Assembly: GCA_903936705.1 (NCBI GenBank)
Contig: CAIZWN010000032.1
Location: 1 to 35,914, forward strand
Origin: an uncultured Myxococcales bacterium
Lineage (GTDB): Bacteria; Myxococcota_A; UBA9042; DTJE01
Direction: 5' to 3'
DNA length: 35,914 bases
This document shows positions 2,414 to 26,673 of the stretch, in pieces. The notes under the pieces were generated by a model, which made no database searches, had not been told where the DNA came from, and saw only the letters and a list, made by a program, of their open reading frames with translations. A program made the translations under genes and the position numbers. The number at the start of each line of letters is the position of its first letter. The first letter of the stretch is position 1.

Positions 2414-3070
2414 TCAGGGAGTGAAGGGTTTCCAGGCATCGACCTGGATCTCCCACTCGTAGCCCAGTTGATCGTTTTGCAGGTACACCTTGACCGGGTA
2501 TCGCATTTCGTTCGGGCCTGCCCATTCCGGGAAATCGATTTGGATGACCGCACCGTCCCGCAATAGCGATCGATGTCTGAGGTCTCCGGTGACCGGGTTG
2601 TCAGTTTCTCGAACCAGGGTGCTGCCCATCTTGCAGGTTCTCTCCGATGGACCGCCGGCAGTTTTGGTGCAGCCGCCAAAGAAGGCCCAGCGCACATCGG
2701 CCAGCAGGTGGCGGGCGTCAAGGCGGGCAAAAGCCTCGATGCGCGACTCGACAGACACCTTGTCACCGTCCGCACTTACCGTCAGCAGGCGGTTGCCGGC
2801 CGGGGACAAAAGCACCAGGTCCAGTCGCGAACCCTGTTTCTGCACGACTCCACGGCCAATGAACGAATGGCCCAGGTAGTTGACCCAGACCGACTGCTGG
2901 ATGGAAACGTCGGGTGACAGGGACGCTGGTGACACCGGGTCGGGTTCGGGCATGGCCGTGCCGGGGCGACAGGCCAAAGTGCCGGCGGACAGGCAGTATG
3001 CGGCAACGATCAGCGTGGCAAGCCTGGCTGATTCGAAAGCATTCTGCCGAAAGGGATCATGTCGGTTCAC
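2414..3070 (-). CDS. DUF3261-type lipoprotein of aryl polyene clusters (ApeN-like)
   Basis: A predicted exported protein of 218 residues, and the last gene of the long minus-strand operon. The GTG at 3070 is chosen because a perfect GGAGG (3076-3080) sits 5 nt upstream. An ATG at 3088 would overlap the exporter more and has no ribosome site. The N-terminus has a short basic stretch, a hydrophobic segment and a Cys after TLA, so it is probably a lipoprotein although the lipobox is not ideal. Family knowledge: a DUF3261 lipoprotein accompanies the MMPL exporter and LolA-like protein in aryl polyene clusters and is thought to help move the pigment-lipid to the outer membrane. It overlaps the exporter gene by 14 nt, implying coupled translation. 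The assignment rests on size, lipoprotein signal and position; motif support is modest. Confidence 0.65.
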   Translation of the reverse strand: MNRHDPFRQNAFESARLATLIVAAYCLSAGTLACRPGTAMPEPDPVSPASLSPDVSIQQSVWVNYLGHSFIGRGVVQKQGSRLDLVLLSPAGNRLLTVSADGDKVSVESRIEAFARLDARHLLADVRWAFFGGCTKTAGGPSERTCKMGSTLVRETDNPVTGDLRHRSLLRDGAVIQIDFPEWAGPNEMRYPVKVYLQNDQLGYEWEIQVDAWKPFTP

Positions 3071-5426
3071 GAAGGCCTCCGAAGGCAAGGGCGCGCACTG
3101 CGAATGTCAGAAGGCCCAGCACCGCAATCCCCACGCCAACGGTAACTCCGACAGACACCAGCGCCGACGTCCGGCAGAAACCCATCAAGCCGAACGACAC
3201 GGCAGTAGTCAGGGCCGACAGCAGAACCGTGGGCGCGGCGCCGGCTCCACCTGCAGTACCGGCATCGTCGTCCAGCAGGAACAGGCCCAGGTCGATGCCC
3301 ATGCAAAGTATCAGCAGCAGCGAAACGACATGCAGGAAGTTCAGGGGTATTCCGAGGGCAGCGATCCCGCCAGTCACCACCAGCAGAGTCAGCAGCGTTG
3401 GCGCGAGAGTGGCCAATGCCAGGCGCGGACGGCGTCGGACTGCGGCGATCAAAATGATGTTCAGCAGGACACCGGTTGCAACCAAAGCCAGGGTCTGACG
3501 CTGGGACGAGGTGACCAGCGAGGAAACCAAGGCGCGTGGGTCCATGACCGTCACGGATCCATCGGGCTTCTCCAGGTCCAGCAGGTCCCCAGGTGTGACT
3601 TCGGGCCCGGCGAGAGTCAGGACGTATGCACGGTCCGCGTGCGTGAACGTGAACCCCTGGAGGAGGCCATCAAGCGACGTGCCGGCCAGGTCCGATGGCA
3701 GCAAGGGGTGGACCAGGCCATCCCTGACGCGACCAAGTTCGGTGATGAAGGGCTGGAATCGTTCGGGCCGGAACCCTGCCGATCGTAGTGAGGCATCAAT
3801 CAGGGTAGCGGGATCGGGCAGTGCCGCAAGTGTGTCCAGGTTGCCTTGCTGCAGTTCGGCCGATGGAAGAAGCGCGTGCATGGATGCGAAATCAGGTCCG
3901 GTTCCAGCAGCCCTGCGGGCGGCAAGGTCGGCGTGCACGGTATCGGAACGGGCCAGAGCCTGCTGAAGGTCGGACCCAGAGGCCAGCACGACGCGCGGGA
4001 AGGCCGATGAAGGCAGGTGTGACCGGATTGCGGCGTCCTCGGCCAACGTGACCGGTTCGCCGGCATCCAGTGCACGAGCATCCTGTTCGAGGCGCAGGGA
4101 GGGGAGCATGGCGGTGGCGGCGACAGCCATGACTACCAGCAGTCCCAAAATTACCGCGCGGTGTCGGCGCAAGACCGCAAGCGCCCGATCGATAGGGATG
4201 TGGAATGCGGTCGCTGGCCTGCCGCCCGGCCGCGGGGCAAGCCAAGGCTTCAACGGCGGCAGGAACAAGACCGTCGATGCGAACGCTACTGCGATTCCCA
4301 CCATGCAGAAGACCGCGATCTCCCTGATGCCAGGGTAGTCCGAGAAGCACAGTACCAGGAAGCCTGATAGCGACGTCACGACACCGGCCCCAAGATTACG
4401 CCGCATGGCTCGCGCTGCCGCCTTTTGGGCAACGTCATCTGCCTCGGGGGGGGTTCGAAGGCCGTTCAGAAGATGGATCGGGTAGTCGATGCAGGCGCCT
4501 ATCAGGACACCACCAAACCCAAGCGTCAGGCCGTGGATCGACCCCTGGAATCCAGCCAGCACTCCTACGGCGGCGGCCACGCCAATCGACACTGGCAGGA
4601 AGGCCAGAACCAGGAAGCGCAGGCGCCGAAAAAACATCAGGAAAAGCAATGCGCACGCGATCGTGGAGGATATCGAAGCAAACGAGATGTCCGACTTTGC
4701 GCGGTCTTCCGACTCGGTTACGAAGCGTCCAAGCCCGGTAAACGACAGGACGTACCCGCCGCCAGCCTCGGCGTTCCGGGCAGCAAAGCGATCGCGGACA
4801 AGGACCATGGCCGCGCGCTGGGCGTCGGTGTCGAAGGCTGCGGCCGTCGTCTCGGTAAGTATCAGTGCATGTCGCAGATCGGCGCTGTACCACTGGCCGT
4901 TCAACTGGCGAGGCGCCAGCTTCGCGATCCCACCCTCTGCACGCTGGAGGAGGTCGGCGAAGGACATCAGTGGATCGGACGGTGCCAGGCTTTTTACCAG
5001 AGGGCCCGTCGGCAGCACCAACGCGTCCTTCAGGCGGCGCATTGCGGCAGCCAGGCCATCGGGTGAAAACAGCCGGGGCACTTCCTGCTGGGGATCATCC
5101 GACAGGAAGGCGAGCCTGCGCGGGAAGTACAGGCGCTGAAAATCCTCGGCGGTGGATGCGCCCGGACCGGTGCGCACCGACTTGAAAAGGGTGGATGACG
5201 CCAGATCCGATGCCAGCCCGGTAACCATTGTGGCGGCAGCGTCGGTCGCGGCATCGCTTGGCATCGAATCGGGAACGGCGATATCGATGACCAGCCCCCG
5301 GGAAAAGCCGGTGGCCTTTACAAGACCCGACAGGGCCAGACGGTCCCGCTGGTTGCCCTCGGGCAGGAAGCGCGTGATATCGGTTTCCAGGCGAACCGAA
5401 CGCCACTGGGCAAGGCTCCAGGCCAA
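3057..5426 (-). CDS. MMPL/RND-type exporter (ApeM-like)
   Basis: A large inner-membrane transporter of the MMPL (RND-like) family, about 789 residues. The order is one N-terminal membrane helix, a long periplasmic loop that opens with an LETDITRFLP-type motif, a cluster of about five helices, a second helix (VILGLLVVMAVAATAML), a second loop, and a final helix cluster ending near the C-terminus. In aryl polyene clusters this protein is assumed to export the lipid-linked polyene. The start is a problem. The only in-frame canonical start is TTG at 5426, which falls inside the first membrane helix. The reading frame continues upstream through a Leu run to the end of the LolA gene without another ATG, GTG or TTG. 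A GTG at 5465-5467, overlapping the LolA stop as GTGA, is in the wrong frame by one base. The true N-terminus is therefore probably longer. Confidence 0.85.
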   Translation of the reverse strand: MAWSLAQWRSVRLETDITRFLPEGNQRDRLALSGLVKATGFSRGLVIDIAVPDSMPSDAATDAAATMVTGLASDLASSTLFKSVRTGPGASTAEDFQRLYFPRRLAFLSDDPQQEVPRLFSPDGLAAAMRRLKDALVLPTGPLVKSLAPSDPLMSFADLLQRAEGGIAKLAPRQLNGQWYSADLRHALILTETTAAAFDTDAQRAAMVLVRDRFAARNAEAGGGYVLSFTGLGRFVTESEDRAKSDISFASISSTIACALLFLMFFRRLRFLVLAFLPVSIGVAAAVGVLAGFQGSIHGLTLGFGGVLIGACIDYPIHLLNGLRTPPEADDVAQKAAARAMRRNLGAGVVTSLSGFLVLCFSDYPGIREIAVFCMVGIAVAFASTVLFLPPLKPWLAPRPGGRPATAFHIPIDRALAVLRRHRAVILGLLVVMAVAATAMLPSLRLEQDARALDAGEPVTLAEDAAIRSHLPSSAFPRVVLASGSDLQQALARSDTVHADLAARRAAGTGPDFASMHALLPSAELQQGNLDTLAALPDPATLIDASLRSAGFRPERFQPFITELGRVRDGLVHPLLPSDLAGTSLDGLLQGFTFTHADRAYVLTLAGPEVTPGDLLDLEKPDGSVTVMDPRALVSSLVTSSQRQTLALVATGVLLNIILIAAVRRRPRLALATLAPTLLTLLVVTGGIAALGIPLNFLHVVSLLLILCMGIDLGLFLLDDDAGTAGGAGAAPTVLLSALTTAVSFGLMGFCRTSALVSVGVTVGVGIAVLGLLTFAVRALAFGGLREPT

Positions 5427-5463: not shown

Positions 5464-6117
5464 TCACGGAGTGAAATAGGCCTTTGCCTCCTCGTCCGTG
5501 AAGGGACGGTTGGCCACGGTGTCCCGGAAGGTCATCGTGGATGCGTCCCCGCCAAGCTCCTCGACGCGGACTTCTCGCAGTGTTCCGTCGCGGGCCATGC
5601 GAACGTCCATCTTGCGCACGGCCTTGGCAAGCGGGTCGCGCAGGGGGACCAGGGTCAGTCGCCAGGCATCCTCCTCGGGCACGGCCTCGCATCGATACAA
5701 CGAGGAAAGTGCGTCGATCCTGCCGCCCAGGACCAGCAGCATGTTGGCTACTACAGCGCGTGCCACTTCGGAAGCACCTAGATCCATTGATGATTCCCGG
5801 CCCAGGTCGGCCTGGACAACCTTGATGCGGGCGCCAGACAGGGTGACAGACTGGCGCGCCGGAGCTTCTGTGACAATGTGCAGACGGTCGGGGCGCTGGT
5901 AGTAGACGTGTCCTTTCGACACCAGCGGCGCATTCAGGATGGCGATTTCCTTGCGATCGGTGAATGCCGCCCGCAGGGTCGAAACGTCGGTGAAGGATTG
6001 GGTCAACCCAGGGACTTCGTTGCATGGCCTGGGCGCGACCGAAACTGGCGCGTCAGCCGCCATCGCGCGGGAAGCGAGGCAGGCCAGCAGCGTCGCGGGC
6101 AGGATCCACGATCTCAT
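5464..6117 (-). CDS. LolA-like periplasmic lipid/lipoprotein carrier (ApeL-like)
   Basis: A periplasmic carrier of 217 residues. The ATG at 6117 has a GGAG 8 nt upstream and begins a textbook signal peptide (MRSW, hydrophobic core, SRAMA-AD cleavage). The mature part has the LolA-type layout: a segment that reads 'G(H)VYYQRPDRLHI' where LolA proteins have an F-(R/K)-RP-L-W-type motif, then beta strands that would form an open barrel around a hydrophobic ligand. In aryl polyene clusters a LolA homologue sits next to the MMPL exporter and probably shuttles the lipidic product across the periplasm. The gene overlaps the thioesterase gene by 65 nt and ends next to the exporter, so it is co-transcribed. 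It is not the housekeeping LolA, judging by its context. Confidence 0.8.
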   Translation of the reverse strand: MRSWILPATLLACLASRAMAADAPVSVAPRPCNEVPGLTQSFTDVSTLRAAFTDRKEIAILNAPLVSKGHVYYQRPDRLHIVTEAPARQSVTLSGARIKVVQADLGRESSMDLGASEVARAVVANMLLVLGGRIDALSSLYRCEAVPEEDAWRLTLVPLRDPLAKAVRKMDVRMARDGTLREVRVEELGGDASTMTFRDTVANRPFTDEEAKAYFTP

Positions 6118-6565
6118 GCGGCAGCTCCAGTACGAGTTCAAAGGTGTCCACGGCCAGCGCGACCTGGAGGGTGTATCCCTCGGCCGCCTTTTTCTGCGAG
6201 GTGTCGTTGAATATTTCGTACGCGATCAGCAGGGAACGGTCTGCATCCACGATGTAGGCACGTGCGCGCCCGTCGTCGCCGTTGCGCAGCGGCGACAGGT
6301 AGCGGCAGTGCGCATCCACGACCGGGCATACCAGTCCGTACCGCAGGATCGCTTCATGGGTCAGACCCATGCGTCGTTCCAATTCGGTGCGCGCAATCTC
6401 GAAATACTTGATGTAGTTTCCGTGCCAGACCACCTGCATCGCGTCCACGTCGTGGAATGGCACCCGGAAGGGGACATCGACCACCAGGGCCCCGGGTGCG
6501 GGACGCATGCGTGGCATTCGAGGCGGTCGCGGCGGATTGTGTGCAGGTGGATCACGTTCCGGCAT
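6053..6565 (-). CDS. 4-hydroxybenzoyl-CoA thioesterase-family hotdog thioesterase (ApeK-like)
   Basis: A hotdog-fold acyl-CoA/acyl-ACP thioesterase of 170 residues. The catalytic segment HDVDAMQVVWHGNYIKYFE matches the 4HBT motif, with the Asp near residue 41 as the expected catalytic acid and WHGNYIKYFEIAR forming the start of the central helix. The ATG at 6565 has AAGGA about 9 nt upstream and leaves 5 nt after the acyltransferase stop. A start at 6613 would overlap that gene and lacks a ribosome site. The first 25 residues are Pro/Arg-rich and probably disordered. In aryl polyene clusters a thioesterase of this family is conserved and may release or edit stalled acyl-ACP chains. The substrate cannot be told from the sequence. 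Confidence 0.82.
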   Translation of the reverse strand: MPERDPPAHNPPRPPRMPRMRPAPGALVVDVPFRVPFHDVDAMQVVWHGNYIKYFEIARTELERRMGLTHEAILRYGLVCPVVDAHCRYLSPLRNGDDGRARAYIVDADRSLLIAYEIFNDTSQKKAAEGYTLQVALAVDTFELVLELPHEIVDPARDAAGLPRFPRDGG

Positions 6566-6570
6566 CGGCT

Positions 6571-7473
6571 TCAGTCCTTCTTGGGTCCCCAGAAATCGTA
6601 GAAATTGTACCACTGCGTCGGATAGCGACGGGCGTATTCTTCAAGACGCACCGAGTACCGAAGCGCCAGGGCTTCGACACCGGCGGATCGATCGCGGCGG
6701 TTCGGAAGATCCTCGGGTTCGGCAAATCGCTCGATCAACAGCGAGTATTTGCTGACATCGGTCTTGACCAGGAACATCAGCAGGATCGGGGCCTTCAGCG
6801 CTGCCGCCAGAAGGAATGGCCCGGCCGGAAATTCCCGTTCGACGCCCATGAATGGGACCTTGACCCGCGGACCATTGGCGAACGTGCGATCACCCAGGAT
6901 GCCCACGTATTCACCGCGGTCCAGGCGGGCGCGAACTTCCAGCAGCGGCGCAACGGAATCGGCGTCGGAGGCCACCTGTATAACGTTTCGCTCGATGCCC
7001 GGGTCCAGCCGTTTCAACTCGTCGTACAAGCGCGAGGATGGCGCATCGTGCATCATCATGCTGAAGTTCACGCGCTCGGTTTCGGCAAAGGCGCGTGCCA
7101 TCTCCATCACCCCGAGGTGGGCTCCGATGACGAGGTGGCCGCGGGGAGGCTCGGTTCCATCCAGAAGGCCGGCTGGGGACTGCACCTTCAGATTGAAGCT
7201 GCGTCCACGGCCCATGACAGCGAAGGCCCTGTCAAGGATCGACTCGGCAAAAGCGAAAAACGACCGGTAGGTCAGCCAGTGCGAGGAACGACCCAGCGCG
7301 TACCGGTGGAATTCTGCGAGGCAGCGGCGAGCCTCGGGGACCCGAAACGTGTAGTACAAGGCCAGCAATGCAACGAAGGCGCGGGTGGCCCGGTAGCCGA
7401 CTATGCGAATCAGGCCGAGGGTGAACCTGATACCCAGCCTTGATCCTACTTCGCGCGTGTTCTGCCAGTCCAT
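6571..7473 (-). CDS. LpxL/HtrB-type lysophospholipid acyltransferase
   Basis: A membrane-associated acyltransferase of 300 residues from the lipid A late acyltransferase family. It shows an HX4E catalytic motif (GAHLGVMEMA), a GDR motif followed by PRVKVPFMG, and the C-terminal QWYNFYDFW signature typical of this family. The ATG at 7473 is preceded by GAGGAG at good spacing. In E. coli-type aryl polyene clusters a glycosyltransferase and an acyltransferase of this type are fused in one protein; here they are separate adjacent genes (7498-8253 and this one). The likely role is to attach the polyene acyl chain, or a fatty acid, to a glyco-lipid anchor at the inner membrane. Confidence 0.85.
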   Translation of the reverse strand: MDWQNTREVGSRLGIRFTLGLIRIVGYRATRAFVALLALYYTFRVPEARRCLAEFHRYALGRSSHWLTYRSFFAFAESILDRAFAVMGRGRSFNLKVQSPAGLLDGTEPPRGHLVIGAHLGVMEMARAFAETERVNFSMMMHDAPSSRLYDELKRLDPGIERNVIQVASDADSVAPLLEVRARLDRGEYVGILGDRTFANGPRVKVPFMGVEREFPAGPFLLAAALKAPILLMFLVKTDVSKYSLLIERFAEPEDLPNRRDRSAGVEALALRYSVRLEEYARRYPTQWYNFYDFWGPKKD

Positions 7474-7497: not shown

Positions 7498-8253
7498 TTA
7501 TAGGGGCCCACGACTACTGAAAAAGGCCTTGGTAGTGTCGGAAACCTTTTTTGCCAGGGCTCCAAGGCTCAGGCGCGCATGCAATCGGGTCATCAGCACG
7601 TTGTCGATGAAGGGTTTGAAATGGGACCTGTGTTCCCCCGGGCGCCCATAGCGTACGCGTGTCGGAATTCCGCGAACGGTCCATCCCTGACGCACGGCGC
7701 GCACCAGGATCTCGACGTCAAAATCCATCCTGGCGCCCATAGGGGGGAGCGCATCGAAAAGGGCCAGCGGGTAGATGCGATATCCGCACTGCGTATCGGT
7801 CAGCGGATGGTTGCCAGTCTCCAGATGGTACCAGAACATTCCGAATCGGCGTCCGAAGCGTGACGATGCCGGGGCGTTGTGGTCAAACAGGCGCTCGCCG
7901 GCCAGTACCGCCCGATCGTCGGCACGGCAAGCTGCGATAAATACCGGAATGTCGTTTGCGTCGTGCTGTTCGTCGGCGTCCATCTGCAGGACGTGGGTGT
8001 ACCCGTGATTCCTGGCGACTGTGGCCCCGGTCTGGACGGCTGCGCCCTTGCCACGGTTTCGATCGTGGTGCACCAGGATGATTCCGTGGTCGGAAGGCAG
8101 GTTTGCAGGGCCACCATCGGTCGAGCCGTCATCAACCACAATCACGGTTGGCAGATGTACCCGCAGTGCCGCCACGACACGGGCAACGGTATCCCCGTTG
8201 TCGAACAGAGGCACAAGGCCACAGATGCGGGGGCCGTTTACGTGGTTGGTCAT
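7498..8253 (-). CDS. Family 2 glycosyltransferase (DPM1/DPG-synthase-like)
   Basis: A GT-A-fold, family 2 glycosyltransferase of 251 residues. It has the nucleotide-binding VVDDGSTD motif near the N-terminus, NRGKGAAVQTG, the metal-binding DxD (QMDADEQHD) and a TDTQCGYRIY segment typical of polyprenyl-phosphate and aryl polyene GT2 enzymes. No membrane helices are seen. Translation is coupled to the upstream dehydratase by an ATGA overlap. It probably transfers a sugar, likely a hexose, to the lipid anchor or to the polyene. Together with the next gene it would do the job of the fused glycosyltransferase-acyltransferase of gammaproteobacterial clusters. Confidence 0.85.
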   Translation of the reverse strand: MTNHVNGPRICGLVPLFDNGDTVARVVAALRVHLPTVIVVDDGSTDGGPANLPSDHGIILVHHDRNRGKGAAVQTGATVARNHGYTHVLQMDADEQHDANDIPVFIAACRADDRAVLAGERLFDHNAPASSRFGRRFGMFWYHLETGNHPLTDTQCGYRIYPLALFDALPPMGARMDFDVEILVRAVRQGWTVRGIPTRVRYGRPGEHRSHFKPFIDNVLMTRLHARLSLGALAKKVSDTTKAFFSSRGPL

Positions 8254-8606
8254 GGCGAGTTCTTTGCGAGCGAAAGCTCTCCGGTCGACACCTCGGCGCG
8301 TGCATCGGAAAATTTCCAGGCAATCCGACCCTTGGCGGGGAGAGGTTCGATCCGAAAATCAATTATCGCGCCGGGGCGGACTGGCGACGAAAATTTGACG
8401 CGATGCAACGTCAATACCCGCACAGGCGATTTACAAGCCGCCGCCAGCAAGCTGGTTACCAGGCGCACCTGGGCCACGCCCGGCAGCAGGGGCGAGTCCG
8501 GGAAGTGCCCGTCGAAAAAGGGAGAATCCTGCGGAATGCGGAAGTGGCCCGCATGCACCCCTTCTGCGGTGTCGAGTTCAAGCAGATCAAAATCGGAGCG
8601 CGTCAC
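8250..8606 (-). CDS. 3-hydroxyacyl-ACP dehydratase, FabZ/ApeI-like hotdog
   Basis: A short hotdog dehydratase of 118 residues with the FabZ-type catalytic segment FFDGHFPDSPLLPGVAQV, His near residue 34. A GTG at 8606 is used because GGAGGA lies about 9 nt upstream. The frame is open further but those residues have no family features. The LHRVKFSSPVRPG segment matches the second half of the hotdog. It would dehydrate 3-hydroxyacyl-ACP to the trans-2-enoyl-ACP in each elongation round, without the reduction step, leaving a polyene. Aryl polyene systems use two different dehydratases as a heterocomplex (ApeI and ApeP); the second is encoded at 30883-31305. Confidence 0.85.
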   Translation of the reverse strand: MTRSDFDLLELDTAEGVHAGHFRIPQDSPFFDGHFPDSPLLPGVAQVRLVTSLLAAACKSPVRVLTLHRVKFSSPVRPGAIIDFRIEPLPAKGRIAWKFSDARAEVSTGELSLAKNSP

Positions 8607-8653: not shown

Positions 8654-11077
8654 TCAAGTGTTCTGACGGCCCAGGACAACTACCCAGTTGGGACCCAGGG
8701 GGGATGTTCCTATCACCATTATTCGCCGCGGTGGAATCCCGGGGATCGTCGAGTCGGCCCAGATTCCACCTTCCAGGCAAGCTACCGCCGCCATCAGCGC
8801 CGATGATGCGTCAGCGTAGCCGGCGGCGTCAACGGTTGATATCAGCGGCGGCAGGTGCTGGCCAAAGACTTTTTGCAGCGCGTCCAGTTCCCGTTTGAAA
8901 CCGGGGCCGCCAACCGGGGCTGCGGCTATGGCGTCCACCTGCGACGGAAGGCATTCGGCACGCTCCAAAGCCTCGCTGATGGCGGCGGCCAGGGCATCTC
9001 CCGAGGTAGACAGTTGGACCAGGTCGCCGGTATCGGTCGAGGCCGCCCAACCCAGGATGCAGGCCAGCGGACATGCCCCTCGACTTGCGGCCTCGTCAGC
9101 CGTTTCGATCACCATCATGGCGGCACCCTCGCCCGGATGGCGCCTGCGCCACCCGTTGCCGCCAGTTGTCGCGTCGTCTGGTGGCAGCCAGCCGGCAGCG
9201 TCGTCGTTGCGGAAGGCTTGTTCGTAGACCTCGTCGGCAGACCCGGTAACGATGCGAACGGCGTGGCCTCGCGATACGGCCTCGGCGGCCACGGCAAGGG
9301 CGGCAATTCCGGCCTGTGGCCCCGAGGACACCGTGGTCCCGTACCCCTTCAGGTACAGCGCCTGCGATACGTATCCTGCGACCGAATTGGCGACGCTTTC
9401 CGCAAAGCCTGTCGGGTCGGCCATGTGGTCCGGCGTGGACCAGACGCGGCGCATCAGAGTCTCCTCGGAAGGTCCGACGTTGACTCCGATGACCAGTCCG
9501 GACGACTCCAGTACCTTTGGCCGAAGCTGCAACCCGGCTCGTTCCAGGGCCTCGCGGGCCGCCATGGTGGCGAAACGGCCGATGGGGTTCATCGGCCTCA
9601 GGTCGATCCGGCGTTCGTGCTGTCGCCAGTCGAAGGGATCCAGCAGGGCCCCGTATCTCGACGTGCAGCCGGAGGTGTCAAAGCGAGTGATGGGTCGTAT
9701 TGCCGTCAGTTTTTCCGACAGTGCATTCCACAGTGCGCCAGTCCCGATTCCCAGGGGCGTAACGGCCCCGATTCCCGAGACCACGACCTTCCGGTTCGGC
9801 ATGTGTGGCTGGTTGCCCCTGGAAGTATCGGGGCGCGACATCAACAAGGCTGCGTTATTGCCGGAAAACGCCAGATTTACCTTCATGAACGGGTCGCGTT
9901 CCATGGGTCGCGGCCCCGGTCCTACCACGTCCAGTCCAATCCCTGGTCGAGGACCGTCAAATCCCAGCGTTGGCGGGATGAATCCATCCAGCATGCCAAT
10001 GACCGATGCCGTCGCCTCGAGGATCCCCGCGGCGCCCAGTGTATGTCCCAGGAACGACTTGGCCGAGGTGACAGGAACCTTGGCGTTCCCCAGCAGGAGC
10101 TGCATTGCTCGCGATTCGGCTCTATCGTTGGCCTCGGTGCCGGTCCCGTGGGCGTTGATCGATCCCAGTTCGTCAGGTCTCATGCCTGCGCGGTCCAAAG
10201 CTGCGCGCATCGCCCGTGTCGCACCGCTGCCCGATGGTTCCGGTGCCGTCAGGTGATGGGCATCGCCCGACAAGCCATAGGACAGCAACTCGGCCAGGGG
10301 CCGTGCCCCCCGCGCGGTGGCCGATCTTTCGGACTCAACCACCCATATCGCGGCGCCCTCGCTGAGCGTCATGCCGTATTCCGCCGGCGATCCCGAGAAC
10401 GGGCGGCAGGGACCAGGTTCGGCCATTGCCTTGACCGCCGAGAATCCCGCCCAGGTGGTCAGGCACAATGCGTCCGAGCCGCCTGCCAGTACAAGGTCGG
10501 CCCGTCCCGACTGGACCAGGTCGATGGCGCTTCCAATGGCGTTGGTCGATGACGAACATGCCGTTGTAATGATGACAGTAGCCCCGGACACGCCGAACGT
10601 GTGTGCCAGCGCCCGGCCCAGAGCCGAGTAGCGCAGCAGGTGGGCATCACGCTGATCCAGAGGGGCGCTTGGGTTTGCCAGGACCGCCTGCCACCTGACC
10701 TCGGCGGTCCGCAGGCCGCCGTTGCACGTCCCCACGCAAAGGGCGGCCCGTCGATCCCTGAGGTTCGCAGGGAGACCTGCATTGGCGATGGCCCGCCGCG
10801 CTGCTGCCAGCGCGAACTGGATATAGCGGTCGGGGTACGCCTGCGCCTCGCCCTCCGGCAAGTCGCTGTCGGGATTGAAATCGTGGATCTCTCCACCAAG
10901 ACCACTGCGAAAGCATGACGTGTCGAAGCTGTGGACCGAACGGATGCCGGAGCGCCCTTCCAGCAGGGCGTTCCTGAATGCCTCAATCGAATGGCCGAGT
11001 GGGCTGACCAGCCCGATGCCGGTCAAAACTGCGCGTAGGCTGCCGGGGGCATCTTGGGTTGGGGCAGGGTTCGTCAT
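8654..11077 (-). CDS. Fused beta-ketoacyl-ACP synthase / chain length factor (KS-CLF)
   Basis: One 807-residue reading frame with two thiolase-fold ketosynthase units. Residues about 18-410 are a complete KS: TACSSS with Cys near 174, HGTGT with His near 310, and LGHTLGAAG with His near 345. Residues about 426-807 are a KS-like unit without catalysis. The Cys position is replaced by Gln (SSGPQAG, near 588), the HGTGT His motif is missing, and this Gln is the hallmark of chain length factors. The linker is only about 15-20 residues. The ATG at 11077 overlaps the radical SAM stop (ATGA). An ATG at 9802 starts the second half but has no well-placed ribosome site and there is no stop before it. 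In known type II systems KS and CLF are separate heterodimer subunits. Likely role: iterative malonyl elongation and chain length control. Confidence 0.88.
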   Translation of the reverse strand: MTNPAPTQDAPGSLRAVLTGIGLVSPLGHSIEAFRNALLEGRSGIRSVHSFDTSCFRSGLGGEIHDFNPDSDLPEGEAQAYPDRYIQFALAAARRAIANAGLPANLRDRRAALCVGTCNGGLRTAEVRWQAVLANPSAPLDQRDAHLLRYSALGRALAHTFGVSGATVIITTACSSSTNAIGSAIDLVQSGRADLVLAGGSDALCLTTWAGFSAVKAMAEPGPCRPFSGSPAEYGMTLSEGAAIWVVESERSATARGARPLAELLSYGLSGDAHHLTAPEPSGSGATRAMRAALDRAGMRPDELGSINAHGTGTEANDRAESRAMQLLLGNAKVPVTSAKSFLGHTLGAAGILEATASVIGMLDGFIPPTLGFDGPRPGIGLDVVGPGPRPMERDPFMKVNLAFSGNNAALLMSRPDTSRGNQPHMPNRKVVVSGIGAVTPLGIGTGALWNALSEKLTAIRPITRFDTSGCTSRYGALLDPFDWRQHERRIDLRPMNPIGRFATMAAREALERAGLQLRPKVLESSGLVIGVNVGPSEETLMRRVWSTPDHMADPTGFAESVANSVAGYVSQALYLKGYGTTVSSGPQAGIAALAVAAEAVSRGHAVRIVTGSADEVYEQAFRNDDAAGWLPPDDATTGGNGWRRRHPGEGAAMMVIETADEAASRGACPLACILGWAASTDTGDLVQLSTSGDALAAAISEALERAECLPSQVDAIAAAPVGGPGFKRELDALQKVFGQHLPPLISTVDAAGYADASSALMAAVACLEGGIWADSTIPGIPPRRIMVIGTSPLGPNWVVVLGRQNT

Positions 11078-12435
11078 CTGCAAAGAAACTCCCACATGGG
11101 TCCGATGATACGTCCGCGCGCATGGGCGCGTCGGACCAGGGCAGCCATTTCGTCGGATGAATCGTCCATGACGAAATTCGAGCGTAGGGACCCTTCCTGG
11201 GCCATGCGTTCCTTAAGCCAGGCTGGGTCAACGTCGGGCGAACAGTAGAAAACGGGGTCGAACAGTGTGTCTTCTGGCGTCACGACGCCTTCGGCCAAGG
11301 CCCTTTGATGCAGCGGCGTGCCGGGATATATTCGAATGGTCATCCCTGGAAAGAAGACCGAATTTGCCAGTGTCGCGGATCTGGCCAGCGTCTCCTCGAC
11401 GGTGGCCCGGGTCTCGCCAGGCCCACCGAACAGCAGGAAATGCGCCCGGTGCACGCCGGCCTCGCCCAGGACAGCATGGGCACGTACGACATCATCAAAA
11501 CGGAACGGCTTGCCGTATGCCTCCAGAACAGGATCGCTGAGCGATTCGGTGCCCAGTTCGGCATGAGTCAATCCGGCAGCGCGCAGCAGTCCTACGTAGG
11601 ACGGTGTCAGGCGCCACGGGGCGATATAGGCGGCGAAAGGCACCTTGACCCCTCGTCGCAACAGTGCCTCGGCAAAGGCCGTCGTGTGGTCCACGTCAAG
11701 GTTGAACACGGAATCCACGAAGAACAGAAAGCGGGCGCCGCCGTCGCGCAGGCGCTCGACTTCGTCAACAAGCGAATCGACGTCGTGGCGGCGCAGGACA
11801 CGTCCTTCGACCATCGGATACGTGCAATAGCAGCATCGCAGGCTGCATCCTCGCTTGGTCTGCAGGTTCAGCATTCCGCCGAAACCCTGGTAGGTCTGGA
11901 AAAGACGCCGAGACGCGGCGGCATGACCAACGCGACCGGTCCACCTGCCTGGCGGCGTCGGTGGCCGTCCGGGTCGGATCAATCCGGGAACCCCGTGTCC
12001 ACCGTTGGCCTCGTCAGGGTCAAGGCCGGCATCAATGGCGTCCACCAGGATTCCCAGGAACTCGCCCTCGCCTACGATGCCGTAATCTGCCCCAAGTTCC
12101 TCCATGTATCGCTGCGGAAAAAGGGTGAAGGCCGCCCCTCCTAGAACAAGGGGGGCGGTCGTAGCCGACTTGATGATGTCAGCCACGCGCCGGTAGTCCG
12201 ACGCGTAAACGCGACCGCCGGGTTGCGGCATGTCGACGTTTCGCAGGCTGATGCCTACGAGGTCAGGCTCGAAGGTGCGGATGGCCTCGGGCAGGGCATC
12301 CTCGCCGTCCACGATGCAGTCGAACAGCGACACCTCGTGGCGGGGCTGAAGGGCGTGAGCCACGTACGATATCCCGATCGGGAAGACCGGGTTGGGGAAT
12401 TTTTCCGGATTGGCCGAGATCAGGAGGACTCTCAC
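11074..12435 (-). CDS. B12-binding domain radical SAM enzyme
   Basis: A 453-residue protein with an N-terminal cobalamin-binding Rossmann domain (VLLISANPEK, PVFPIGISYVA, about 1-130). A radical SAM TIM barrel follows with the cluster motif CSLRCCYC (CxxxCxxC, near residues 190-197), then an HAELGTES segment and an FLLFGGPGET segment typical of this class. The DxHxxG lower-ligand motif is not seen, as is usual for class B enzymes. The GTG at 12435 is chosen because GAGG lies 5 nt upstream; a GTG at 12441 forming GTGA with the previous stop is also possible. It lies between the KS pair and the KS-CLF, with start-stop overlaps on both sides. Likely reaction: C-methylation or another radical step on the polyketide or starter. 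The substrate is unknown. Confidence 0.85.
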   Translation of the reverse strand: MRVLLISANPEKFPNPVFPIGISYVAHALQPRHEVSLFDCIVDGEDALPEAIRTFEPDLVGISLRNVDMPQPGGRVYASDYRRVADIIKSATTAPLVLGGAAFTLFPQRYMEELGADYGIVGEGEFLGILVDAIDAGLDPDEANGGHGVPGLIRPGRPPTPPGRWTGRVGHAAASRRLFQTYQGFGGMLNLQTKRGCSLRCCYCTYPMVEGRVLRRHDVDSLVDEVERLRDGGARFLFFVDSVFNLDVDHTTAFAEALLRRGVKVPFAAYIAPWRLTPSYVGLLRAAGLTHAELGTESLSDPVLEAYGKPFRFDDVVRAHAVLGEAGVHRAHFLLFGGPGETRATVEETLARSATLANSVFFPGMTIRIYPGTPLHQRALAEGVVTPEDTLFDPVFYCSPDVDPAWLKERMAQEGSLRSNFVMDDSSDEMAALVRRAHARGRIIGPMWEFLCR

Positions 12436-12437
12436 CG

Positions 12438-13172
12438 TCACCTCGCCTGGGCCGGGCCGCAATGAATGCGAACCAGCGAACCGCACATCAGGGCCGTTGT
12501 GTCGAATTCTACAGATCCCGGCAGATCCAGGAAGGGCTTCAGCAGGGAATCCAGCCTTGCTGGCGGCCCATCGTCGCCCGAAGCCTCTCGCACAACGGTT
12601 ATCTGACGTGACCTCCCCTGTGGGGACGGCCGGGAACCCAGGATGCACAGTGTTGCGAACCCACTGCATCCGACTCCCGACACGGCGCCGAATTCTCCCG
12701 CTACAGCGGCCTCGCAAGAGCCGGCTGAGACCTCGTGGATCGCGGCGACCAGGGCCGCCACGCCTGCGGATGAGTCCTGGATGATGGCGAAATTGGCACC
12801 GCGATATCCTCGAAGGATGGCCAGTTCCGCGCCGGGAGTGGACGGTAGCGTCCTGGCATACGTGGCGGGCGAAGGGCGCTCGTTGATCGACTTTGCAAAC
12901 GCAAGATCCGCGTCCAGGCTGCCGGTCGAGGAACCGAGTATTACAGATGTCGCGTCGGGCATGTCGGGACACGGAGGCGGCAACAGGCCCGCAGCGCATA
13001 TGACGTAGCGACTTGGCAGATCCAGGCGGGCCAGGCGTGGCTGGTCGGGGAAGAACCGCCGCGGATCGGGCGGTACGTCGTGACCATCGGGATTCCAGGA
13101 CTCGTAGCCATCCGGCCCAGCCAGGACCTGCTGTTCCACCCACGCGATGGCCTGCAGAAAGACTGGTCGCAT
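12438..13172 (-). CDS. Truncated ketosynthase-like protein without active-site Cys (probable CLF/partner subunit)
   Basis: A 244-residue protein resembling only the N-terminal half of a ketosynthase. It has VILGSSTGSLDADLAF and then QDSSAGVAALVAAIHEV, which aligns with the nucleophile elbow of a KS but with Ser instead of Cys. The C-terminal His motifs are absent. Length and content fit the short KS-like 'chain length factor' group found in aryl polyene clusters. ATG 13172 is chosen because GGAGG is 6-7 nt upstream; ATG 13178 overlaps the KS stop (ATGA) but is too close to that site. It directly follows the KS gene 13175-14251, so the two probably form a heterodimer. It has an N-terminal WVEQQVLAG segment of unknown meaning. 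Confidence 0.65.
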   Translation of the reverse strand: MRPVFLQAIAWVEQQVLAGPDGYESWNPDGHDVPPDPRRFFPDQPRLARLDLPSRYVICAAGLLPPPCPDMPDATSVILGSSTGSLDADLAFAKSINERPSPATYARTLPSTPGAELAILRGYRGANFAIIQDSSAGVAALVAAIHEVSAGSCEAAVAGEFGAVSGVGCSGFATLCILGSRPSPQGRSRQITVVREASGDDGPPARLDSLLKPFLDLPGSVEFDTTALMCGSLVRIHCGPAQAR

Positions 13173-13174
13173 GG

Positions 13175-14251
13175 TCATCCCTCCAGCACCAGGGCGGCGT
13201 CCAGCCCACCGAATCCCGCATTCACGGTCATGATTCTTCCTGGTGCGACGTGACGGGTTGATGCGACGATGTCAATGCCGCTGTCGTTAGCGGTGAACCC
13301 GACCGTCCCAGGAATGTATCCCCCATTTATTGCCAGCACGCATGCCACCGCCTCCAGGACTCCGCAGGCCCCCAGCGTATGGCCTGTGGCGCCCTTCAGG
13401 CCGAACACCGGAGGTGCCCCGCCAGGGAAAAAGGCGCGGAATGCGGCAATCTCCATTGCGTCGTTCGCCACGGTGGCAGTGCCGTGGCCGCAGATTGCAT
13501 CGACTTCACGGCCTCCGGAATCGGCAGACGCACGGGCCATTGCCAGGGCCAAGCCAGATCCGTCGTCGCAAGGTCGAACGATCGTGAATGCGTCGCCGGC
13601 CAGGCCCACGCCAGCCAATCGCACACCCGGCACGTGGTCGTCCACCAGCAGGACGGCTGCAGCAGCCTCTCCCAGGGACAGGCCGTCACGGCTGCCGTCG
13701 TAGGGCCTGCACGCAGTTGTTCCCAGGGCACCCAGACACCCGAACCCTTTTGCCAGGAAGGGATCCAGACGGTCGAATCCCAGGACCAGCACCCGCCTTC
13801 CAAAACCCTCTTCGAGCAGCCTGGAGGCCCTGGCAATGGCAACAGCGCCTGACGCGCAAGCAGCCGACACCAGTTCCGCATGGCCACGGTGGCCAGCCGC
13901 TCGTCTGACGCGCGCCAGGAAAGGGCCAAGGCTAGTGGAGCCGCCTGCCGCCAGGAGGCCGGATATGTCCCCCTTTGTCGTGGCGACTATCAGGGCGGTA
14001 TCCGGATCGGCCAGCACGTCAGGATGCTCGCCAGCGCGTCGGCACGTAGATTCCAGCACGCGGACCAGAAACTCGGCAAGAACATCTCCCGGTCCATCCC
14101 AAGCCGGGTGTGGCATGTTTCCAAGCCAGGCCCCGTCTGGTTGCACGCCCAGGCCACCTATTCCGGATTTGATGGCGCTGGTGAAGGCATCAAGATCTGC
14201 GCCCAGGGCGCTGACGACCTCCATGCCCGCAAATCTGGGTTGTATGCGCAT
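13175..14251 (-). CDS. Beta-ketoacyl-ACP synthase (KS)
   Basis: A complete but compact ketosynthase of 358 residues, the first gene of the eleven-gene operon. The catalytic triad is present: Cys near 132 (SAACASG), His near 256 (GHGTAT) and His near 291 (TGHTLGACG). It would catalyse decarboxylative Claisen condensation of malonyl-ACP with an acyl primer. The ATG at 14251 is chosen because residues upstream in the open frame are unlike any KS; the ribosome site is weak. The next gene encodes a KS-like protein lacking Cys, its likely partner. By analogy with aryl polyene systems, one KS initiates on the aryl starter and others elongate. Which role this one has cannot be told from sequence. Confidence 0.85.
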   Translation of the reverse strand: MRIQPRFAGMEVVSALGADLDAFTSAIKSGIGGLGVQPDGAWLGNMPHPAWDGPGDVLAEFLVRVLESTCRRAGEHPDVLADPDTALIVATTKGDISGLLAAGGSTSLGPFLARVRRAAGHRGHAELVSAACASGAVAIARASRLLEEGFGRRVLVLGFDRLDPFLAKGFGCLGALGTTACRPYDGSRDGLSLGEAAAAVLLVDDHVPGVRLAGVGLAGDAFTIVRPCDDGSGLALAMARASADSGGREVDAICGHGTATVANDAMEIAAFRAFFPGGAPPVFGLKGATGHTLGACGVLEAVACVLAINGGYIPGTVGFTANDSGIDIVASTRHVAPGRIMTVNAGFGGLDAALVLEG

Positions 14252-15387: not shown

Positions 15388-16617
15388 ATGTCGGGACGCA
15401 TCGAGTCAACCACACTCCTCCAGTCACTGATGGCCACCGCGTTTCGCGAGTGCGATGCGGCAGCACGCGACCCTTCGCGTCGTGTTGCCTGGTGCAGCAG
15501 CGTCGGTCCGGTTGAACTGCTGCGTGCGCTGGATTTCACCGTGTTCTTCCCGGAAAACCATGCAGCCATGCTGGGCGCTTCCCGCATGTCTACCGGGCTG
15601 ATTCCCTTCGCCAATGCCGAAGGTTTTTCCCCGGAGGTCTGTTCGTACATGACCTCCGATATCGGAGCCTTCAGGCGCAATGTGACGCCACTTTCGCGAG
15701 TCGACCCCTCGATAACGTCGGTTCCGAAGCCGGACGTGCTGGTGTACGACTCGAACCAGTGTCGCGACGTTGTGGACTGGTTCTCGTTCTATGGCCGTGA
15801 ACTGGGTGTGCCAGTGATCGGAGTGGCGGCCCCGCGTGGAGTGCAGGAACCGACCGAGGATCTGGTGGCCGCGGTGGCGTCGCAGATCCGCGCGCTGGTG
15901 TCGCCGCTTGAGGCGATTGCCGGCCGGCGTCTTGACCCGGATCGACTGCGCGAAGCCGTCGCCGTGTCTCGCGACACCTCCGATCTGTGGCGCAGCGTCC
16001 TGTCGTGCGGGGAGGCGCTTCCATCGCCGTTGACCTTCTTCGACGGGTGCATTCACATGGGGCCGGCCGTGGTGTTGCGCGGCGATCCCAGGGCGCTGGA
16101 ATACTACCGGGCCCTGCTGGCCGAGTTGCAAGCCAGGATCGCGGCGGGCCAGGGCGCGGTTTCGGGCGAGCGGGTGCGCCTGTACTGGGACGGGATGCCA
16201 GTCTGGGGCCGTTTGCGTGATCTGTCGGACCTTCTGGCAGGCCTGGGCGCCAGCGTGGTCGGATCTACCTATTGTTCGTCGTGGGTGTTCGGGCAACTGG
16301 ATCCAGATGAGCCGTTCGACAGCATGGCTCGGGCGGCCATCGAGCTTTTCATTGCGCGCACCGACGCTGTGAAGGAAATGGTTCTGGCGGGCGAGGCGCT
16401 CCGTTATCGCGTGGACGGGATAGTGTTCCACGACGCGAAGACCTGTCCGAACAACAGCAACTGTCGTTACGGGATGCCGGCGCGCCTGCGGGAAGGGAAG
16501 GGTCTTGCGTCCGTCATCGTCCACAGCGATCTGAACGATCTTCGTCTGCACGCCGACGAAGGGGTGCGCCTTGCCTTGGAGGCCTTCGTGGAACAATGCC
16601 TGGAGGCGCGCCGGTGA
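15388..16617 (+). CDS. 2-hydroxyacyl-CoA dehydratase D-component-like iron-sulfur protein (HgdB/FldC/BcrC family)
   Basis: A 409-residue protein of the 2-hydroxyglutaryl-CoA dehydratase D-component family. These proteins hold a [4Fe-4S] cluster and eliminate water from 2-hydroxyacyl-CoA through a ketyl radical. Family hallmarks are WCSSVGPVELLRAL, Cys85 in EVCSYMTSDIGAF, Cys125 in YDSNQCRD, Cys353/Cys359 in KTCPNNSNC, and a final VHSDLNDLR segment where relatives have a (I/E)-D-C/D-R-type motif. ATG 15388 has GAGG about 8 nt upstream. It overlaps the activator gene (GTGA). Classic dehydratases need two different D subunits (such as FldB and FldC); only one is encoded here. It may be a homodimer, have a partner elsewhere, or be a YjiM-like double-cubane protein. 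The enzyme class is oxygen-sensitive. Confidence 0.85.
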   Translation: MSGRIESTTLLQSLMATAFRECDAAARDPSRRVAWCSSVGPVELLRALDFTVFFPENHAAMLGASRMSTGLIPFANAEGFSPEVCSYMTSDIGAFRRNVTPLSRVDPSITSVPKPDVLVYDSNQCRDVVDWFSFYGRELGVPVIGVAAPRGVQEPTEDLVAAVASQIRALVSPLEAIAGRRLDPDRLREAVAVSRDTSDLWRSVLSCGEALPSPLTFFDGCIHMGPAVVLRGDPRALEYYRALLAELQARIAAGQGAVSGERVRLYWDGMPVWGRLRDLSDLLAGLGASVVGSTYCSSWVFGQLDPDEPFDSMARAAIELFIARTDAVKEMVLAGEALRYRVDGIVFHDAKTCPNNSNCRYGMPARLREGKGLASVIVHSDLNDLRLHADEGVRLALEAFVEQCLEARR

Positions 16618-17405
16618 ACGCCTGTTTTTACTGCGGCGTCGATGTAGGTTCATCGTATTCCAAGGCCGTTCTGCTGGACGCGTCTGGAGGGTTTGCTGCC
16701 GGTGCCATTCGCCGGACCGGCCTGGATTTTGCCCGTGTTGCAATGGAGTTGCACCAGGATCTGCTGGTGGCAGTGCCGGATGCGCGGGACAACGTGGCCA
16801 GGACCGTTGCCACCGGCTACGGCCGCGACAACGTGGCATTCGCCACCAGTCGCATTACCGAGGTTTCCTGCCAGGCTGCGGCTTGCTGGCACCTGTTTCA
16901 CCAGGCGCTGACCGCGATCGACGTGGGCGGCCAGGATACAAAGATCATCGTGCTGGGTGAGACCGGCCGTCGAACCGATTTCCGGATGAACCGGCGTTGC
17001 GCCTCGGGCACGGGTGCGTTTCTGGAGGAAATGGCTGCCCGTCTTGACACGACGCCGGATGGTCTGGAGGCGCTGGCCGGGAGGGGGCGTGATGCCGTGC
17101 CTTTGTCGTCGTTTTGCACGGTATTCGCCAAGGGCGAATTGTTGTCGTTGATCCGTGCCGGACGCCCGGTCGAGGACATCGCGCTAGGTGTCTACGACGC
17201 GGTGGTTCGCAGGGTCGTGGAAATGGCGTCGTTGCAATCGGGAACCATCGTGCTGACGGGTGGCGCCGCGCGACCCGGTGGCGTTCTGGTTGGTCGCTTC
17301 GAGGCCGCTCTGGGACGTCAGGTGCTGGTGCCCGACCGACCCCAATTGACGGTCGCTTTGGGGGCGGCGTTGCTGGCGATGCGGGAAGGGGAGGGCGTGC
17401 CATGA
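16614..17405 (+). CDS. ATP-dependent activator of 2-hydroxyacyl-CoA dehydratase (HgdC/FldI/YjiL family)
   Basis: A 263-residue ASKHA-fold ATPase that donates one electron to the partner dehydratase on ATP hydrolysis. It contains the phosphate-1 loop GVDVGSSYSKAV, DVGGQDTK, and the two conserved Cys that bind the shared [4Fe-4S] cluster between two monomers (NRRCASGTGAF and SSFCTVFAKGE). The adenosine motif is LTGGAARPGG. GTG 16614 forms GTGA with the dehydratase stop and has GGAGG 7 nt upstream. The stop overlaps the synthetase start (ATGA). Tight coupling with the dehydratase gene indicates they work as a pair. Activators of benzoyl-CoA reductase are related, so that family remains an alternative. 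Confidence 0.92.
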   Translation: MNACFYCGVDVGSSYSKAVLLDASGGFAAGAIRRTGLDFARVAMELHQDLLVAVPDARDNVARTVATGYGRDNVAFATSRITEVSCQAAACWHLFHQALTAIDVGGQDTKIIVLGETGRRTDFRMNRRCASGTGAFLEEMAARLDTTPDGLEALAGRGRDAVPLSSFCTVFAKGELLSLIRAGRPVEDIALGVYDAVVRRVVEMASLQSGTIVLTGGAARPGGVLVGRFEAALGRQVLVPDRPQLTVALGAALLAMREGEGVP

Positions 17406-20519: not shown

Positions 20520-20912
20520 ATGGTCCGCGGGGTCGGAACCGACATCGTGGTGATTGAGGACCTCAGGCTGCGGATGGAACGCTCGCCGGGGCTGGAGCAG
20601 AAGGTCTTCGACCCCGGTGAATCGGCGTATTGCCGTTCGATGGCCAGGCCATTCCAGCACTTCGCGGCGCGGTTCGCGGCGAAGGAGGCTGTAATGAAGG
20701 CGTTGGGGACGGGCTGGGGCGCGGGAGTGGACTTCGCGGATATCGTGGTGGTCCGTGGGGCGGAAGGCGCGCCGACCGTTGAATTGAAGGGCGAGGCCGC
20801 CCGGCGGGTGCTCGCGGCCAGTGGGCGGGTGCACGTGTCCCTGTCGCATGCCGGCGAACATGCCGTTGCATTTGCGGTTTTCGAGGCCCAGGAGGAGTTG
20901 CATCATGGCTGA
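20520..20912 (+). CDS. acpS: AcpS-family 4'-phosphopantetheinyl transferase
   Basis: A 130-residue AcpS-type enzyme that moves the phosphopantetheine arm of CoA onto a Ser of an ACP. The Mg-binding Asp8 is in GVGTDIVVIEDL, and Glu56 is in RFAAKEAVMKALGTG, both in the usual AcpS arrangement. The C-terminal SLSHAGEHAVAFAV is typical. ATG 20520 fits the normal AcpS length; the ribosome site is weak. Its last codons overlap the ACP gene, so it is very likely the dedicated activator of the cluster's ACPs (20905 and 27799), like the transferases of other aryl polyene clusters. It may also be the cell's only AcpS; that cannot be judged here. Confidence 0.9.
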   Translation: MVRGVGTDIVVIEDLRLRMERSPGLEQKVFDPGESAYCRSMARPFQHFAARFAAKEAVMKALGTGWGAGVDFADIVVVRGAEGAPTVELKGEAARRVLAASGRVHVSLSHAGEHAVAFAVFEAQEELHHG

Positions 20913-21177
20913 TATCCCCGCGGACCTGAACGGCGAGATCAAGCGAGTGATTGTCGAGGCGCTGAACCTGGATACCCCTCCGGAGGATATCTTGGACGAC
21001 GCTCCGCTGTTCGGCGAGGGTCTTGGTTTGGATTCGATTGACGCACTGGAGATCGCGATGGTGCTGGAGAAGCGCTTTGCAATCAAGGTGCAGCCGGACA
21101 AGGAAACCAAGAAGTACTTTTTCTCGATTGCGACCCTGGCCGACCTGGTCCGCCAGCGACTGGCCGGCGTGTCCTGA
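20905..21177 (+). CDS. Acyl carrier protein
   Basis: A 90-residue ACP. The phosphopantetheine attachment Ser is Ser44 in GLGLDSIDALEIA, followed by a basic VLEKRFAIKV helix and an unusual KETKKYFFS insertion before helix IV. ATG 20905 has GGAGGAG at ideal spacing and overlaps the acpS stop by 8 nt. Aryl polyene clusters carry two ACPs (ApeE and ApeF); the second is encoded at 27799-28107. It should carry the growing polyene or the starter unit. Confidence 0.95.
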   Translation: MADIPADLNGEIKRVIVEALNLDTPPEDILDDAPLFGEGLGLDSIDALEIAMVLEKRFAIKVQPDKETKKYFFSIATLADLVRQRLAGVS

Positions 21178-24867: not shown

Positions 24868-24884
24868 GTCGACCTCCGCAGGTG

Positions 24885-24905
24885 GCATGCCTACTTCAGG
24901 CATGC
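24885..24905. repeat. Perfect inverted repeat upstream of the second acyl-CoA synthetase
   Basis: GCATGCCT (24885-24892) and AGGCATGC (24898-24905) form an 8-bp perfect stem with a 5-nt loop, ending 18 nt before the GTG start. There is no T run, so it is not an intrinsic terminator. It may be an operator or an RNA hairpin in the leader. Confidence 0.4.
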
Positions 24906-25924: not shown

Positions 25925-25926
25925 CG

Positions 25927-26673
25927 TCATATCACCGTGACCGACAGGCCGCCGTCCACCACCAGCGCCTGTCCGGTGATGTAGGACGACTCGTCGGAAG
26001 CAAGAAACAAGGCGGCAGCCGAGACTTCTTCCGGTCGCCCGAAGCGGCCCATCACTATGCGTTCCCTGTAGTTCCGTCTTGCCGGTGAAGGAATGCTGGC
26101 GGTCATGTCTGTGTCCACGAAGCCAGGCACCAGACTGTTGACGCGGATGCCCTTGCCGCCCGCCTCGGCAGCCAGCCCCCGCGTAAGGGACATTATCGCT
26201 CCCTTGGACATGCTGTATGCCACCTGGCCAGGCAGACCGAAAAGGCCGGCGACCGATGCCACGTTAACGATCGACCCGGACTTTCGTAAAAGCATCGGGC
26301 GAAAGACTGCTCGCGCCCAGTTCACGGTTCCAAGCACGTTTGCATCCAGCACCTGCCGGACATTGTCGGCAGGCATCATTGCGAACAGCCCGTTGTGCGC
26401 GACACCGGCATTGTTGACAAGGATATCGACGCGCCCATCCCTGGCGAGCACCGTCTGAAGGGCGGCTTCTACCGCAGCCGGATCACGTCCGTCGCACAGG
26501 ATCGCGACGGCGCCCGGGACGGCAGCCTCGACCTCGCGCGCGGCCTCCTCGTGACGTATGTAAGTGAACCAGACCTTCGCCCCTTCGGCGGCGAACCGTT
26601 CGACAACGGCTCGACCGATGCCCCGGCTTCCGCCCGTGACGATCGCGACCCGGTCTTCAAGTCTTCCGGGCAT
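25927..26673 (-). CDS. fabG: 3-oxoacyl-ACP reductase (SDR family, FabG)
   Basis: A 248-residue short-chain dehydrogenase. It has the NADP-binding [15 protein letters not shown], the catalytic Ser (NVASVAG) and YxxxK (YSMSKG), and the C-terminal GQALVVDGGLS. ATG 26673 has GGAG 7 nt upstream; the longer open frame upstream has no SDR features. It reduces 3-oxoacyl-ACP to 3-hydroxyacyl-ACP in each round. A second reductase is encoded at 31305-32039. Two copies in one region suggest different partner chains, such as starter-proximal and elongating substrates. Confidence 0.9.
   Translation of the reverse strand: MPGRLEDRVAIVTGGSRGIGRAVVERFAAEGAKVWFTYIRHEEAAREVEAAVPGAVAILCDGRDPAAVEAALQTVLARDGRVDILVNNAGVAHNGLFAMMPADNVRQVLDANVLGTVNWARAVFRPMLLRKSGSIVNVASVAGLFGLPGQVAYSMSKGAIMSLTRGLAAEAGGKGIRVNSLVPGFVDTDMTASIPSPARRNYRERIVMGRFGRPEEVSAAALFLASDESSYITGQALVVDGGLSVTVI

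Follow-up and report, generated by a model that had tools for sequence, protein, structure and literature searches.

In type II polyketide and aryl polyene systems the ketosynthase (KS) and the chain length factor (CLF) are separate proteins that pair as heterodimers, as described in the available parts of two articles (PMC8358021, PMC12664062). In the 35,914-nt stretch of DNA analysed here (hereafter the window), a single gene of an uncultured Myxococcales bacterium carries both on one frame. This locus raises the question of whether the fusion is genuine, whether its halves act together as a KS:CLF pair and what kind of lipid the surrounding cluster makes. A sequence-only reading of the window had proposed the fusion and had correctly stated that the two proteins are separate in type II and aryl polyene systems, without mentioning the covalent precedent of polyunsaturated fatty acid (PUFA) synthases, to which we return below.

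Translation of positions 8654–11077 on the minus strand, a strand that the sequence-only reading had left unstated, gives 807 residues in one continuous frame, as claimed, from an ATG at 11077 to a single, terminal stop (8654–8656). A Pfam scan of the protein placed ketoacyl-synt twice and Ketoacyl-synt_C twice, and nothing else passed its cut-off; the chain stops after the CLF, without dehydratase or isomerase domains. The KS half (about residues 15–411; 9845–11035, minus strand) includes C174, H310 and H345, the Cys-His-His triad of type II KSs, at exactly the positions previously assigned, as well as K340. It is FabF-like: the fused protein passes NF005589 (442.7 bits, cut-off 387), while its score with TIGR03150 stays under the cut-off (462.7, cut-off 493.75), and the identity of this half to FabF-type KSs is about 33–38%.

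The C/H/K/H catalytic set kept in the KS half is gone from the CLF half (about residues 431–807; 8657–9787, minus strand). When KS and CLF domains are aligned together (20 rows), C174, H310, K340 and H345 face Pro587, Ala720, Val749 and Tyr754, respectively, without gaps. The CLF half carries GPQAG at residues 586–590 and no HGTGT, in line with the motifs initially noticed. The accompanying claim that Gln replaces the catalytic Cys did not hold, since Pro587 faces C174 and Gln588 is the adjacent residue. Nor is Gln conserved: the Cys position is occupied by P, Q, H or A in the CLF halves of the aligned fused relatives. The classical actinobacterial CLF mark, a Gln at the Cys position, is thus absent from the window protein and variable among its relatives and, as far as these alignments indicate, the common feature of these CLF halves is the loss of the catalytic residues, not a Gln. 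These data also bear on whether the second half could act as a KSQ-like decarboxylase and make an acetyl starter. Although a Gln does lie near the former Cys position, it is Pro that stands opposite the Cys, relatives vary at this position, and both His residues required for decarboxylation are absent from the window protein, so that we regard such an activity as extremely unlikely.

A short linker, as expected from the earlier reading, joins the two halves (about 20 residues, approximately residues 412–430; 9788–9844, minus strand). It is variable and weakly conserved; in each of five pairwise comparisons, 19 of its codons could be compared without a gap. The linker contains Met426 (9802), located exactly at the junction, and translation could conceivably restart there, giving a free CLF beside the fusion. 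However, neither a stop nor a good internal ribosome site intervenes, as the sequence-only reading had also concluded: the only candidate is an AGGGG about 14 nt upstream of the Met426 ATG, a long spacing. Moreover, this ATG is not conserved among fused relatives. Other proteins of the window's family (f1) have no ATG nearby, Met426 is absent from the six other fused proteins of alignment A1, and among 20 fused proteins, junction starts with a Shine-Dalgarno-like motif are sporadic and not conserved (for example, a GTG in the fused gene G372a). Restart, which had been named as an event that could undo the fusion, is therefore very unlikely.

The other event named, a sequencing or assembly error hiding a stop between two genes, was a legitimate concern for a draft genome of 84 contigs. 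It was addressed through independent assemblies rather than through reads, and the frame was confirmed. We searched 52 related genomes, of which 13 belong to f1, the window's genome included. In six of these 13 the fusion is present at full or nearly full length with no internal stop, and the five relatives are 75, 73, 59, 58 and 52% identical to the window protein. Across 377 genomes of the phylum, at least four further genomes gave a strong match over both halves, namely G052 (family f13) and G176, G364 and G249 (family f45); at a strict threshold, 7 of the 14 f45 genomes match, a contig end cutting the match in one of the seven. Fused copies lie side by side in tandem in six genomes (G009, G052, G364, G379, G386 and G388). 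With the same fusion recovered in other draft assemblies, the probability of an error is negligible. Intact fused relatives occur in three families, often in tandem, which makes the fusion genuine and ancient rather than a product of faulty sequencing or a peculiarity of one species. No relative was found in viral contigs. Matches from Eremiobacterota are single KSs.

The survey of relatives, which had been suggested at the outset, showed that fused and split pairs both occur in this phylum. In G315, G152, G257, G261 and G200, a KS frame is followed by the frame of a KS-like partner with only a stop codon between them. The separate CLF-like genes of the first four genomes (loci L129, L130, L131 and L132, in G315, G152, G257 and G261) share a DGNCG motif: Asn occupies the Cys position with a Cys adjacent to it, the Lys is retained and Glu replaces the second His. 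These four genes form a clade of their own in the KS/CLF tree. A different arrangement is seen in family f17, where a KS is fused to a shorter unit resembling ApeC or the partner of KS1 (a second KS of the window, see below). Two adjacent fused genes of this kind are present in each of two genomes, G134 (L135, 11744–9432 and 9783–7579) and G372 (L136, 11619–9121 and 9563–6522), and possibly represent separate fusion events.

Since no catalytic residue is left in the second half, one could suspect a decaying, functionless duplicate of the KS, all the more so as this half is the more variable one (54 versus 63% identity for the KS half, window versus G011). Both halves are nevertheless under purifying selection, with dN of 0.18–0.19 against dS of 1.2–1.4 in the comparison of the window with G001 (0.187 and 1.446, respectively, for the CLF half), and three families retain the CLF half at nearly its full length. 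Furthermore, the second half and its own KS half lie apart in a joint tree of KS and CLF domains (61 rows). There, one branch (97*) splits all 26 KS rows from all 35 CLF rows, and the CLF side gathers the second halves, a Streptomyces CLF, ApeC and other partners. The assignment of the second unit as a CLF made in the sequence-only reading is supported by this separation from catalytic KSs together with the lost catalytic residues. Decay of a functionless copy appears to us scarcely credible. A recent duplication of the KS half as the source of the CLF was likewise rejected, as the CLF halves group apart from their own KS halves.

How often the two halves were joined was approached with the same kind of analysis, the trees being built without six additional complete f45 proteins. 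The KS tree of 48 rows unites 15 fused KSs, drawn from the four families f1, f13, f45 and f46, in a single starred clade (SH-aLRT 99 by a quick method). Five fused KSs lie outside this main clade: two each from G134 and G372, all four with shorter partners, and G197a. The tree requires four changes to account for its 20 fused rows, with G134a/G372a, G134b/G372b and G197a placed outside the main clade. An AU test did not reject a single clade of all 20 fused KSs (p 0.153), nor a grouping of the main clade with G134a/G372a (p 0.38). On the CLF side of the domain tree, the main clade contributes 14 CLF halves to one starred group (95*), and the CLF half G197b stands apart from it. Repeated fusion is thus possible on the basis of these alignments and trees.

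We then considered how the two halves would be arranged. Structure prediction of the full protein as an intramolecular KS:CLF pair, a check put forward with the initial proposal, gave a confident single-chain AlphaFold2 model (mean pLDDT 90.6, pTM 0.94) with alignment A6 (26 rows), composed of 21 fused proteins and 5 separate KSs. Separate CLFs were omitted from A6 because a previous alignment, A5, had placed them on the KS half; an initial model from six sequences was poor (pLDDT 66.2) and was not used. The top Foldseek match of the model was 6riw, the KS-CLF didomain of PfaC in one chain, which covers both halves (E 1.6e-50, 910 columns, TMq 0.80, TMt 0.70, rmsd 5.0, identity 18%). The other 49 of the best 50 Foldseek rows were KS chains with TMq of 0.45–0.49. 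The best 50 VIA-align rows covered the KS half only (about residues 1–420 of the model), and 6riw was not among them. The model supports an intramolecular pairing of the two halves, although the angle between the domains may differ somewhat from that in 6riw, given the rmsd of 5.0 and 18% identity, and a single-chain pTM is compatible with larger assemblies as well.

Such assemblies are relevant to another arrangement, in which the KS half would pair with the KS half, or in trans with the CLF half, of a second molecule, and the fusion would only raise the local concentration. FabF and FabB are homodimers, the KS half passes the FabF-like model cited above, and the AlphaFold2 prediction was made for one chain only, all of which speak for a dimer of chains. 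Against this stand the high pTM obtained for one chain, the match to PfaC KS-CLF along the whole chain and the conservation of the CLF and KS halves together; we consider this arrangement improbable. We favour, with good confidence, a single protein in which an active FabF-like KS and a non-catalytic CLF, connected by a linker of about 20 residues, form a built-in KS:CLF pair.

The closest known counterpart of this layout is PfaC of PUFA synthases, which also holds an active KS and an inactive CLF in one chain, with the agreement in predicted whole-chain layout reported above (TMq 0.80). According to the parts available of one article, PfaC continues into dehydratase/isomerase domains within a megasynthase (PMC13291983), whereas the window protein ends after the CLF. 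Two others, in the sections available, describe the covalent KS-CLF of PUFA synthases as a didomain for which an intramolecular dimer is proposed (PMC13311796, PMC9702510). An origin of the fusion from a PUFA synthase finds no support in these comparisons, as the protein shares 18% identity with 6riw and its KS half is FabF-like. The type II KS:CLF heterodimers of actinorhodin (1tqy), ishigamide (6kxd) and AntDE (6smp) also combine a C-H-H KS with a full-size CLF lacking the catalytic residues, and the second halves of the window type fall, like a Streptomyces CLF, opposite the KSs in the domain tree. Unlike the window protein, these systems employ two proteins, and their CLF carries the Gln mark.

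The gene contents of the window resemble those of an aryl polyene cluster. Downstream of the fusion on the minus strand come a FabZ/ApeI-like hot-dog dehydratase (8250–8606, its ApeI-like match being below cut-off), a family 2 glycosyltransferase (7498–8253), an LpxL/HtrB-type acyltransferase (6571–7473), a LolA-like protein (5464–6141, above the Pfam LolA cut-off and under that of NCBIfam LolA2_flexi) and an MMPL-family exporter (3057–5426). Upstream, also on the minus strand, are a B12-binding radical SAM gene (11074–12435), discussed below, a separate gene for a half-size KS-like partner of 246 residues (12438–13178) and, adjoining it, the separate gene of the second KS, KS1 (13175–14251). 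Farther away on the plus strand lie a third KS, KS2 (28909–30084), which groups with E. coli ApeO, a separate gene for an ApeC-like half-size CLF (PF13723; 30081–30890), an ApeP-like dehydratase (30883–31305, below the Pfam cut-off) and a FabG-type ketoreductase (31305–32039; NF004200, 307.7 bits, cut-off 273). The window also encodes a FabD malonyltransferase (24953–25930, minus strand; TIGR00128, 264.6 bits, cut-off 260.9), a second FabG-like reductase (25927–26670, minus strand), an AcpS-type phosphopantetheinyl transferase (20520–20912, plus strand), an acyl carrier protein with the LGLDS motif (20905–21174, plus strand) and a probable second carrier protein with the same motif (27802–28107, minus strand), which gave no NCBIfam match at 1e-10. 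A GcvT-like folate-binding protein (26705–27802) is encoded between the second FabG and the probable carrier protein, in an order also seen in G002.

The aryl polyene set of the window thus comprises an ApeO/ApeC-type pair, a ketoreductase, dehydratases (ApeP- and ApeI-like below cut-offs), LolA, MMPL, a glycosyltransferase and an acyltransferase. With the aryl polyene cluster of E. coli CFT073 it has in common MMPL, LolA, the glycosyltransferase, the acyltransferase and KS/half-CLF pairs. Aryl polyene ApeC is a half-size, separate protein, as described in the available part of the source (PMC8358021), while the window carries a fusion beside its separate KS/half-size pairs. The window genes scanned included no recognisable aromatic or ammonia lyase, AMP-binding ligase, phytoene-desaturase-like gene or distinct enoyl reductase. 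The window reaches the end of its contig, and one aromatic lyase is present on another contig of the same genome. At 16596–19558 and 22795–24903, genes for a BcrA/D-type acyl-CoA dehydratase activase (TIGR00241 above cut-off) and for two proteins resembling ADP-forming acyl-CoA synthetases flank the cluster. In G001 and G002, too, the activase and the first of these synthetases adjoin the cluster, and the flanking genes are a possible clue to the starter unit.

Drawing on established KS-CLF biochemistry, the KS half would load the chain on C174 and condense malonyl-ACP onto the growing chain, and the CLF half would shut the far end of the pocket at the pair interface, limiting its depth and hence chain length. 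FabG-like reductases and small dehydratases, encoded as separate proteins, would leave one double bond per round and so turn each unit into an alkene, as expected if the cluster lacks a distinct enoyl reductase, none having been recognised. The upstream B12 radical SAM enzyme may then alter the polyene or unsaturated acyl chain, and the glycosyltransferase, acyltransferase, LolA-like and MMPL proteins may build it into a membrane lipid. Fusion would guarantee a 1:1 pair; in a cluster holding three KSs and two separate half-size partners, the covalent link would also keep this CLF from engaging either of the other KSs.

The radical SAM gene lies directly upstream of the fusion, its end overlapping the KS-CLF start codon, and its product passes TIGR04072 (rSAM_ladder_B12; 376.2 bits, cut-off 360). 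The gene order KS, half-size partner, radical SAM, KS-CLF, FabZ, glycosyltransferase also occurs in G001, G002, G005 and G011; G009, whose contigs break there, is compatible with this order from the KS to the glycosyltransferase. The LpxL-like acyltransferase is missing between the glycosyltransferase and LolA in G001 (L040, 14260–14706) and is found elsewhere on the contig in G002 (L042, 12708–13592). A B12 radical SAM gene directly precedes a fused gene in G052 and at six f45 loci (L127, L128, L149, L150, L151 and L152) as well, so that this position is seen in three families (f1, f13 and f45). The two f13/f45 upstream proteins scanned were far under the TIGR04072 cut-off (49.3 and 44.2 bits), and a search beside the two G176 fusions (L125, L126) turned up no radical SAM gene. 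TIGR04072-like genes just below cut-off (353–359 bits) were noted on other contigs of G364 (L054), G249 (L055) and G176 (L056), in G364 and G249 in addition to the diverged radical SAM gene beside the fusion. The window's own genome holds, on contig C38, a partial second TIGR04072-like radical SAM gene (6–1022) and a further KS (8787–9998), perhaps a paralogous cluster.

This neighbourhood recalls the 'ladderane' clusters of anammox bacteria and Desulfotalea (kuste2802–2805, kuste3603–3608), in which, from the available parts of two articles, a B12 radical SAM gene adjoins canonical and non-canonical FabF/FabB genes (PMC2649909, PMC4790861). The canonical and non-canonical KSs of those clusters are described as separate genes, unlike in the fusion. 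Ladderanes cannot be inferred for the window cluster. One may still entertain, as a speculative reading, that a so far undescribed Myxococcota lipid pathway centres on the fused KS-CLF and the B12 radical SAM enzyme, which would cyclise or methylate a defined polyene to yield an unusual membrane lipid, ladderane-like or otherwise; the defined polyene would be made by one covalent KS-CLF or by a tandem pair with different pocket lengths.

Covalent KS-CLF as such is already known from PUFA synthases, and in the open-access literature, as far as its texts were available, the term 'KS-CLF didomain' is tied to these enzymes. No natural stand-alone two-domain KS-CLF fusion was found in that literature, within the same portion of it. 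The novelty lies in finding the KS-CLF as a stand-alone protein of two domains, encoded in a discrete type II lipid cluster of aryl-polyene/ladderane-like character. Type II KS-CLF pairs are difficult to work with: KS/CLF structures number only three in the available part of a 2025 review (PMC12664062), and a CLF on its own can prove insoluble when its KS is missing, as the accessible part of an article on RemB indicates (PMC6638757). At about 83 kDa, this short, natural single chain already supplies the pair as a 1:1 construct and permits a direct test of whether the depth of the CLF pocket sets chain length. The fusion also suggests that the covalent joining of KS and CLF arose outside PUFA megasynthases, and the stable B12 radical SAM neighbour points to an uncharted lipid family.
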